DNA of 64,000 nt from Hydrogenobacter sp. T-2 (GTDB lineage: Bacteria > Aquificota > Aquificia > Aquificales > Aquificaceae). Numbering within the stretch: the stretch's first letter is position 1; each line of letters starts with the position of its first letter. Made by a program: the position numbers and the translations under genes. The notes beneath the pieces were generated by a model, which was not told the DNA's origin, did no database searches, and was given only the letters and a program-made list of their open reading frames with translations. The DNA lies in assembly GCF_033971325.1 (NCBI RefSeq), contig NZ_CP117180.1, positions 1-64,000 on the forward strand, in the 5' to 3' direction. Positions 21,864-40,630 of this stretch are shown here, piece after piece.

Positions 21864-22915
21864 CACGCAGGAAAACTCGTCAAATACAGGTAGGCTCTGT
21901 AAAGATAGGTGGAGATGCACCCATTGTGGTGCAATCCATGACCTCTACAAAAACGCATGACATAGAGGCAACCCTTGAGCAGATAAAAAGGCTTGCAAAA
22001 GCAGGCTGTGAGTTTGTGCGTGTAGCAGTGCCACACGAAGAAGACTTGCAAGCCCTACCAGATATCGTAAAAAACTCCCCCATACCGGTGATAGCGGACA
22101 TCCACTTTGCACCCTCTTACGCCTTCAAATCTATGGAGAAGGGTGTGCATGGCATTAGGATAAACCCTGGAAATATAGGGAAAGAGGAGATAGTAAGAGA
22201 AATAGTGGAAGAGGCAAGGAAAAAAGGCGTAGCCATACGCATAGGTGTAAACTCTGGCTCTCTTGAAAAGGACCTCTTGGACAAATATGGCTATCCCTGT
22301 GCGGAGGCACTTTTTGAGAGTGCTATGCGTTGGTCTGAGAGGTTTGAAAAATGGGGCTTTTATAACTTTAAGGTCTCCATTAAGGGCTCTGACGTTTTGG
22401 AAAACATAAGGGCTAACGAGCTTTTTGCTCAACATACAGACATACCACTCCACATAGGCATAACAGAGGCAGGAATGGGTCTAAAGGGCATAGTCAAATC
22501 CTCTGTGGGTATAGGCATTCTCCTATATAAGGGCATAGGGGACACGGTCAGAGTTTCTCTAACCGACGACCCAGAGGTGGAGATAGAAACCGCCTACGCC
22601 ATATTACAGTCCCTTGGTCTAAGAAGGAGAGGCATAGAAATAATCGCCTGTCCTACCTGTGGAAGAATAGAGGTAGACCTGCCAAAGGTGGTGAGAGAGG
22701 TGGAAGAAAAGCTAAAACACATACAAAAGCCTTTAAAAGTTGCCATAATGGGCTGTGTGGTAAATGCCATAGGTGAGGCTCGTGAAGCGGATATAGGTCT
22801 TGCCTGTGGCAAAGGCTTTGCATGGCTCTTTAAAGAGGGCAAACCTATAAAAAAGGTAAGCGAAGAAGAGATGGCAAAAGCACTCCTTGAGGAGATAGAA
22901 AATATCCAGAATTGA
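21839..22915 (+). CDS. ispG: 4-hydroxy-3-methylbut-2-enyl diphosphate synthase
   Basis: Reduces the cyclic diphosphate MEcPP to HMBPP, the penultimate step of the MEP pathway, using a 4Fe-4S cluster. RKTRQIQVGSVKIGG at the N-terminus, MTSTKTHD, the INPGNIG barrel motif, and the cluster Cys in CPTCGRIEVDL and MGCVVNAIGEA are all seen. Length 358 fits the short bacterial form. Reduced ferredoxin or flavodoxin is the usual electron donor. The start lies inside the preceding gene; Dxs of the same pathway is encoded at 7.7-9.6 kb. Confidence 0.95.
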   Translation: MVKTEAPITRRKTRQIQVGSVKIGGDAPIVVQSMTSTKTHDIEATLEQIKRLAKAGCEFVRVAVPHEEDLQALPDIVKNSPIPVIADIHFAPSYAFKSMEKGVHGIRINPGNIGKEEIVREIVEEARKKGVAIRIGVNSGSLEKDLLDKYGYPCAEALFESAMRWSERFEKWGFYNFKVSIKGSDVLENIRANELFAQHTDIPLHIGITEAGMGLKGIVKSSVGIGILLYKGIGDTVRVSLTDDPEVEIETAYAILQSLGLRRRGIEIIACPTCGRIEVDLPKVVREVEEKLKHIQKPLKVAIMGCVVNAIGEAREADIGLACGKGFAWLFKEGKPIKKVSEEEMAKALLEEIENIQN

Positions 22916-39601: not shown

Positions 39602-39630
39602 TTGACAGCTTCCTCTCTTGTTTGTATTTT
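39602..39630 (+). promoter_or_regulatory. Strong htpX promoter
   Basis: Perfect -35 TTGACA (39602-39607), exactly 17 nt, then TATTTT (39625-39630). The start site should lie near 39637, giving a leader of about 120 nt before htpX. It is one of the strongest-looking promoters in the window. Confidence 0.65.
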
Positions 39631-39636
39631 AAACTT

Positions 39637-39757
39637 ATATAAATACCTGTGGCATGGACCAAAACCGCCTGCTGGGGCAGTCCATGTGTAAAAAGGCGGG
39701 ATACAAATACCCCAGCCCAGTCAGCCTTATCATGGCTGTCTGGAGGAGGAAAAGGAA
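39637..39757 (+). ncRNA. Candidate structured leader RNA of htpX
   Basis: The leader has three perfect helices that cross one another: 39653-39659 with 39680-39686 (CATGGAC/GTCCATG), 39665-39670 with 39694-39699 (CCGCCT/AGGCGG) and 39671-39677 with 39710-39716 (GCTGGGG/CCCCAGC). A separate hairpin, 39717-39726 with 39734-39743 (9 pairs, one U-U), ends directly before the AGGAGG at 39744-39749. I do not recognise a known riboswitch class. A reading frame through the same bases is an alternative explanation. Confidence 0.4.
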
Positions 39758-39773
39758 ATGGGCTACGCAATAA
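39654..39773 (+). CDS. Possible 39-residue upstream peptide overlapping htpX
   Basis: An ATG at 39654, about 17 nt after the predicted start site, opens 39 codons ending at TAA 39771-39773, overlapping the htpX start by 16 bp in another frame. The peptide has a basic tail (MAVWRRKRKWATQ) and one Cys. There is no Shine-Dalgarno. It may be a leader peptide, a real small protein, or chance; it competes with the structured-RNA reading of the same interval. Confidence 0.25.
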   Translation: MDQNRLLGQSMCKKAGYKYPSPVSLIMAVWRRKRKWATQ

Positions 39774-40630
39774 GGAGTGTTATACTGCTTGGAGTTTTGA
39801 CGGGTCTTTTCCTGTTCGTAGGTAATCTGATAGGTGGTAGGGTTGGAATGACTATCGCCCTCGTGTTGGCAGGAATTATGAACTTCCTCGCCTATTGGTT
39901 TTCTGACAAGATAGTGCTTAAGATGTATGGTGCAAGGGAGATACCCTACGAGGAGGCTCCATGGCTTCACAGGATGGTGGAAGAGCTCGCCCAGAGGGCA
40001 AATATACCAAAACCCAAAGTATACCTTGTCCCTATGGAACAGCCCAACGCCTTTGCTACAGGAAGAGGACCTTCTAACGGTGCGGTGGCGGTCACTTCTG
40101 GCATACTCAGGCTCTTGAACGAAAGGGAACTAAGAGGCGTGCTCGCTCACGAGATCGGACATATAAAAAACAGAGATGTTTTGGTTGCCACCATGGCAGC
40201 AACTATAGCGGGTGCCATATCTTACCTTGTAAGCATGCTACAATGGGCTCTCATATTTGGACACTCAAGGGACGGTGAGAATAACAACAATCCTCTTTCT
40301 CTTATAGCAAGCATAGCCATGATAATTATAACACCCATAATAGCCACCATTATCCAAATGGCTATATCTCGCTCAAGGGAATATATGGCGGACGAAACTG
40401 GTGCAAGGATCTCTGGAGACCCTCTTGCCCTTGCCAGTGCCCTTGAGAAGATACACAACTACGTGCATCAAATACCAGCGGAAGTCAACCAAGGAACTGC
40501 CCACCTTTTCATAGAGAACCCCCTTTCTGGTCAAGGTATATGGGAGCTTTTCTCCACACACCCATCTACAGAAAAGAGAATTGCAAGGCTCAAGGAGTTT
40601 GCAAGGCAGATGGGGGTATTTGCATACTAA
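39758..40630 (+). CDS. htpX: HtpX membrane-bound zinc metalloprotease
   Basis: Inner-membrane quality-control protease. 290 residues: two N-terminal transmembrane helices (about 5-22, 28-47), the zinc motif LAHEIGHIKNRDV near 130, two further hydrophobic segments, and SREYMADETGA with the third zinc ligand. AGGAGG lies 8 nt before the ATG. Unlike most genes here it has a long, structured leader, which suggests stress-responsive translation control. Confidence 0.93.
   Translation: MGYAIRSVILLGVLTGLFLFVGNLIGGRVGMTIALVLAGIMNFLAYWFSDKIVLKMYGAREIPYEEAPWLHRMVEELAQRANIPKPKVYLVPMEQPNAFATGRGPSNGAVAVTSGILRLLNERELRGVLAHEIGHIKNRDVLVATMAATIAGAISYLVSMLQWALIFGHSRDGENNNNPLSLIASIAMIIITPIIATIIQMAISRSREYMADETGARISGDPLALASALEKIHNYVHQIPAEVNQGTAHLFIENPLSGQGIWELFSTHPSTEKRIARLKEFARQMGVFAY

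Follow-up and report, generated by a model that had tools for sequence, protein, structure and literature searches.

The leader of htpX in Hydrogenobacter sp. T-2 belongs to a multi-copy family of knotted RNAs that includes the right end of a TnpB-encoding element inserting at Shine-Dalgarno sequences

The leader of htpX in Hydrogenobacter sp. T-2 (positions 39637-39757 of the 64,000-nt stretch of DNA analyzed here, referred to as the window) contains three short helices that cross one another, which raises the question whether these pairings arose by chance, serve htpX specifically, or have another origin. The three mutually crossing helices of 6-7 bp and the fourth hairpin described in the initial annotation were present as claimed (Table 1). 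H1, H2, and H3 were the only perfect helices of at least 6 bp in the leader; they cross pairwise in the order A-B-C-A'-B'-C', with the 5' arms of both H2 and H3 located in the loop of H1. Among 5000 dinucleotide-preserving shuffles, any mutually crossing triple occurred in 0.34% and one of at least 20 bp in 0.02%. Ordinary fold prediction, which cannot represent such crossing, gave an unremarkable result (z -1.85). The covariance models of Rfam 15 did not match the leader at gathering or relaxed thresholds, in agreement with the earlier statement that it is not a recognized riboswitch or thermosensor. Transcription is predicted from the sequence to start near 39637. Elsewhere in the window, crossing triples of perfect helices with at least 20 bp in total were seen in 121-nt segments at 22181, 36801, 40561, and 44741.

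Table 1. Features of the htpX leader region (positions in the window)
Feature	Position	Strand	Description
Putative sigma-70 promoter	39602-39630	+	TTGACA 39602-39607, spacer of 17 nt, TATTTT 39625-39630
Helix H1	39653-39659 / 39680-39686	+	CATGGAC / GTCCATG; 7 bp, perfect
Helix H2	39665-39670 / 39694-39699	+	CCGCCT / AGGCGG; 6 bp, perfect; near-invariant core CCGCC 39665-39669 / GGCGG 39695-39699, extended by T39670/A39694 in the window copy
Helix H3	39671-39677 / 39710-39716	+	GCTGGGG / CCCCAGC; 7 bp, perfect
Unpaired linker	39700-39709	+	GATACAAATA; between the 3' arms of H2 and H3; near-invariant RATANAAATA in alignments A2-A5
Hairpin P4	39717-39743	+	4+5 bp around an internal mismatch; adjoins H3
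Shine-Dalgarno sequence	39744-39749	+	full AGGAGG after P4, in place of the right terminus of the element (ACCAGG in TnpB-linked copies)
htpX	39758-40630	+	zinc metalloprotease, 290 aa; start codon ATG at 39758; downstream of the leader

A DNA search with the leader revealed that its central ~60 nt recur many times per genome across the Aquificales. A covariance model, R2, built from 29 copies with H1 alone as paired helix, matched 86 of 112 genomes of this order (E ≤ 0.001). The highest copy number, 35, was found in genome G050; per-genome counts are lower bounds, as candidates had been filtered. Hydrogenobacter sp. T-2 has one strong copy, the htpX leader itself (86 bits), and two weak further matches (18.0 and 16.2 bits) that lacked the core pattern were treated as chance. 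A pattern scan of named genome contigs gave 63 stretches, mostly from Aquificota, the remainder coming from Thermodesulfobacterium, thermophilic Firmicutes (Fervidicola, Thermosediminibacter, Caldicoprobacter), and scattered MAGs. The RNA is ~100 nt long, and its consensus starts with the H1 5' arm, AAATA, CCGCC, N, GCTGGGG, at least 2 nt, and the H1 3' arm, followed by a short A-rich linker, GGCGG, RATANAAATA, CCCCAGC, P4, a short spacer, the Shine-Dalgarno (SD) sequence, and the start codon.

Pairs were counted in two alignments of 92 and 82 distinct rows, which were fitted to H1 only, so that H2 and H3 were not favored by construction. Standard pairs made up 97-98% in the two alignments; when the partners were slid by one column, pairing fell to about 39-53% and the covariation score, >0.5 in register, to about 0.1. 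H1 proved to be the sequence-variable, covarying stem, with both-side changes at 9 of 9 pairs. H3 showed such changes at 7 of 7 and 6 of 7 pairs in the two alignments, the compensated variants including GTTGGGG/CCCCAAC, GCGGGGG/CCCCCGC, and GTCAGGG/CCCTGAC. H2 was 100% paired, and one of its pairs was changed from C-G to G-C in 11 sequences of G050. P4 varies in sequence with its stem kept and was predicted in nearly all loci folded. The covariation that the initial annotation had looked to homologous leaders for was thus found in H1, H3, and one pair of H2, and the multi-pseudoknot RNA that it proposed is genuine, its helices recurring with compensatory changes in about 170 distinct loci. Judged by these substitutions, H1, H2, and H3 are each individually real, whether they coexist or alternate, a distinction to which covariation is blind. 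Shuffles and covariation together led us to reject a chance origin of the triple-crossing fold.

htpX orthologs are present in 62 of 64 genomes of the Aquificaceae. Among 13 orthologs from the genus of the window, none of which has tnpB beside the leader, H1 carried both-side changes at 6 of 7 pairs, and H2 and H3 were invariant. This pattern of compensatory change indicates that H1 of the htpX leader is a structure held by selection. P4 was predicted in 12 of 12 htpX orthologs inspected, with changed sequences, and TTGACA with a -10-like box at similar spacing precedes the motif in five orthologs (L003, L005, L008, L010, and L011).

The position of the RNA relative to genes is nearly constant: in 161 of 170 distinct copies, an ORF starts on the same strand 22-75 nt downstream (median, 37). 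A -10-like hexamer (5 or 6 of 6 matches) ending 4-11 nt before H1 was found in 37 copies, compared to 8 in a control shifted 100 nt upstream. Proteins encoded downstream, read by eye, include ribosomal proteins and the products of infC, hfq, rpoA, ftsH, htpX, hsp20, acpP, glyA, metE, ilvC, guaB, and atp and nuo subunit genes, as well as thioredoxin-like proteins. These genes share no common pathway, and the sets differ even between sister genomes; 35 copies were found in G050 and none in G051 or G052 of the same genus. In G050, two different hfq-like genes (L159 and L160) each have their own leader copy. Four Firmicutes loci (L109, L127, L136, and L142) have the RNA always before the same gene (MGIVGCYLMPHPPIM...), unlike the scattered targets in Aquificota; we read its product from the sequence as an AmmeMemoRadiSam-type protein. 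The description of the locus as a structured leader of htpX is right about the structure yet covers too little: the leader belongs to a multi-copy family preceding many unrelated genes, and htpX-specific regulation was rejected.

Elements of ~1.7 kb that encode a TnpB-related protein have the RNA as their right end in Sulfurihydrogenibium and its relatives; in Sulfurihydrogenibium-type and some other genomes, the RNA is the 3' end of a long ORF reading through H1-H3. The 607-aa ORF of locus L095 matched TIGR01765 (68 bits) and TIGR01766, "IS200/IS605 family accessory protein TnpB-related" (53 bits); Pfam gave sub-threshold matches only, and none of the solved structures was close in sequence to the TnpB-related protein. 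Its relatives occur in 49 of 112 genomes, Hydrogenobacter sp. T-2 and G050 not being among them. Three genomes with the RNA (G018, G042, and G057) had zero TIGR01766 matches, and in G018 18 copies persist without any TIGR01766 TnpB. Compensated H3 variants were also seen in TnpB-linked copies (GCAGACC/GGTCTGC, GCCAGTG/CACTGGC). A conserved reading frame across the paired bases, which the initial annotation had set against an RNA, is absent from the solo htpX leader; the tnpB frame does traverse the RNA in TnpB-linked copies. These copies lie at the tnpB 3' end, as expected of TnpB right-end RNAs, and share with the window copy the pseudoknot scaffold, H1-H3 crossing with covariation. The window copy has no tnpB beside it and is therefore classed as a derivative, not a member, of the TnpB right-end RNAs.

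Several element copies deviate from this arrangement. In the TnpB relatives of G052, the motif is absent: the alignment stops at the residue preceding it, and the element ends differ in sequence and contain inverted repeats. By eye, one can fit a 3' pseudoknot there whose order and linker length are similar, which we regard as a lead. Such TnpB-only elements without the motif (L296-L302 in G052 and L315 in G038) have terminal inverted repeats (GAGGCTGTTCTAAAAAT ... ATTTTTAGAACAGCCTC), occur in several copies per genome, and show by eye a pseudoknot at the 3' end. L275, near a tnpB end in G041, is a deletion variant of natural origin that has lost H2 and H3 but retains P4 and a shortened H1. 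In five loci of G086 (L187, L188, L189, L193, and L194), the TTAG..CCTG hairpin immediately 5' of H1 has been lost, and a TATAAT-like box is located about 31 nt upstream. Several of these loci have a truncated tnpB, and they are possible intermediates between element and solo leader. A second insert with a long inverted repeat (ATCGTGTTTCAAA...TTTGAAACACGAT-like) lies inside the tnpB 3' end in L200-L203 (G083) and L054 and is common to several copies.

The target of the element became evident from filled and empty orthologous sites within one genus, Sulfurihydrogenibium, which were available for ten genes (trpS, hslU, lexA, guaB, metE, acnB, rpsM, rpsN, rplU, and atpC). The right edge read ACCAGG/gene start in 10 of 10 genes, and the left edge read GGAGG/element wherever it was read (junctions are marked by a slash). 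The empty rplU site reads aaaaAGGAGG/TTTTGATATATG, and the filled site has aaaaaggagg/tgcacaacagttgc at the left and GACCAGG/TTTTGATATATG at the right edge; for trpS, the empty site is aaaAGGAGG/CAATTTATG and the filled site GGAGG/TTaacaatag ... GACCAGG/CAATTTATG. The element inserts exactly 3' of the SD core GGAGG, and its terminus ACCAGG adjoins the start-codon region, which explains the sense orientation and the fixed distance to the gene. This geometry, GGAGG followed by a gene start, fits the TAM and target of a TnpB as far as it can be read from the sequences. IS607 TnpB uses a RAGATH-18-derived reRNA and the TAM 5'-AGGAG or GAGGG (PMC11061315), which makes an SD-like target plausible for a TnpB system.

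Solo copies point to the same target. Leader-less orthologs of the G050 genes and of htpX have GGAGG before the start at 41 of 42 sites, Sulfurihydrogenibium sites included and not all sites being independent, compared to 15-36% of genes genome-wide by a common procedure; such an excess is predicted by insertion at GGAGG. GGAGG within 40 nt 5' of H1 was kept in only 10 of 122 solo copies, so that the left half of the insertion history is reconstructed, and between close relatives no insertion polymorphism of a solo copy was caught. These comparisons strongly suggest that the solo copies, the htpX leader included, also arose by insertion at GGAGG. SD sequences of genes with solo leaders were weaker than those of leader-less orthologs (mean, -6.7 versus -11.8 kcal/mol), but much of this gap reflects target-site bias, insertion targets being preferentially genes whose orthologs have GGAGG. 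When genome averages served as reference, the SDs of leader genes in G050 were modestly weaker (-7.0 versus -8.6 kcal/mol, p=0.01); the difference was clear in G086, for which G075 genes were used in the comparison, and weak in G083, and G018 showed none. The idea of exceptionally weak SDs in leader genes was tempered after this genome-wide control, and the window copy itself is followed by a full AGGAGG.

We consider it probable that the htpX leader descends from the right-end RNA of a TnpB element, as a solo copy that was domesticated and retained as a 5'-UTR module acting in cis. The TnpB-encoding element would insert in sense orientation at the 3' edge of GGAGG in the SD of a host gene, and its right end would fold into the three mutually crossing helices and P4, terminating in ACCAGG. 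ACCAGG would replace the displaced SD, leaving the host gene translatable. Upon loss of tnpB, as at htpX in the genus of the window, the RNA would remain as 5' UTR with its structure still maintained by selection, and the fold may serve its own mRNA in cis, whether it holds the initiation region open, attracts the 30S subunit, or protects the 5' end. This cis function is putative; compensatory change continuing in genomes that lack this TnpB speaks for a role other than in transposition. The unpaired core bases are more conserved than a mere spacer needs, which we counted against the leader-module reading. In a bolder version, doubtful though possible, the knotted right-end RNA would be an SD-substituting, ribosome-recruiting, IRES-like module on an SD-targeting transposon, kept by hosts as a general leader.

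Other origins and functions can be weighed against these data. The high conservation of the unpaired AAATA and RATANAAATA, the compact pseudoknot always just 5' of the SD, and the sporadic occurrence in other thermophile phyla, such as the four Firmicutes loci in which it always precedes the AmmeMemoRadiSam-type gene, would suit a novel class of riboswitches that sense a global signal (nucleotide, cofactor, or ion) and act via translation initiation on many unrelated growth and stress genes. We judge this quite unlikely, considering that the target genes lack a shared pathway and differ between sister genomes, that the copies spread within a mobile element inserting at GGAGG, and that we saw no alternative pairing that involved the SD consistently. 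The direction of descent could also be reversed, with an old host leader RNA for translation or stability later captured as TnpB right end, which would have made SD-site insertions tolerable. Solo copies in lineages without the TnpB and in other phyla agree with such a capture, as does the end of the alignment before the motif in the G052 TnpB relatives. We nevertheless consider it unlikely, since GGAGG at orthologous sites of solo copies lies far above background, as insertion predicts, and since the motif-less TnpB elements appear by eye to have their own 3' pseudoknot, as an omega-RNA origin predicts.

Domestication of the right-end RNA also has to be compared with two further possible roles of the solo copies. 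The fold might merely stabilize mRNAs, shielding the transcript near its start from RNases at high temperature with no direct role in initiation, and both the -10-like boxes ending shortly before H1 in many solo copies and the thermophilic nature of the named hosts would be in accord with this. It would leave the invariant core bases unexplained, however, TnpB-linked copies of the RNA are located deep within a long transcript, and H1 in the window begins about 16 nt after the predicted start, which makes this explanation improbable. Finally, the identity of the RNA with the right end of tnpB elements could mean that TnpB or a Cas12-like nuclease still uses the solo leaders in trans, as guide-RNA scaffolds cut out of the mRNAs. 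This is very improbable in view of the three genomes that have the RNA without a TIGR01766 protein and of P4 and the SD following the pseudoknot where a guide is expected.

Among known systems, IS607 TnpB with RAGATH-18 (PMC11061315) shares the order of tnpB followed by a conserved pseudoknotted RNA at the right end of the element, and its published SD-like TAM is close to the GGAGG insertion site. In contrast to that system, the tnpB frame overlaps the RNA here, and solo copies are kept as 5' UTRs of dozens of genes; IS607 elements have a serine-recombinase tnpA, whereas the element stretches read here from left to right end contained only a tnpB-like ORF. The Rfam model of RAGATH-18 gave no match up to E=10 for the window stretch and up to E=5 for a TnpB-linked locus. 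The omega-RNA of IS200/IS605 elements (ISDra2; PMC10097598) likewise derives from the tnpB 3' end and the right element end and contains a pseudoknot, but three crossing helices with P4, SD-site insertion, and use as mRNA leader are undescribed for it. TldRs, TnpB-derived RNA-guided transcription factors, are another TnpB-derived system domesticated for host gene control (PMC13418256); TldR needs its protein and acts in trans, whereas the leader would act in cis with no TnpB-like protein needed. The pnuC motif, an orphan riboswitch candidate (PMC8632094), is also a conserved RNA directly upstream of the ribosome-binding site, but the present family is multi-gene, mobile, and without a coherent pathway. 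About 100 candidate ncRNAs were reported for A. aeolicus by Lechner 2014 (PMC4227106), the main text of which names no such leader, and openly accessible main texts described neither such an RNA from the Aquificales nor a TnpB element directed at SD sites. The RNA family is thus apparently undescribed.

The family adds to the structured RNAs a large one of rare topology, with three mutually crossing helices, that is absent from Rfam, and the TnpB element targets the Shine-Dalgarno sequence itself, even in genes of core functions, among them those encoding ribosomal proteins and ATP synthase. If the solo copies did arise from this element, they show clearly how an RNA from a transposon end can come to serve as the 5' UTR of many genes. 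Two questions become testable, namely how insertions that separate the SD from the start codon are tolerated in bacteria, and whether the SD can be replaced by a structured RNA; if the right-end RNA does recruit ribosomes, this would let the element sit in the translation start region of essential genes.
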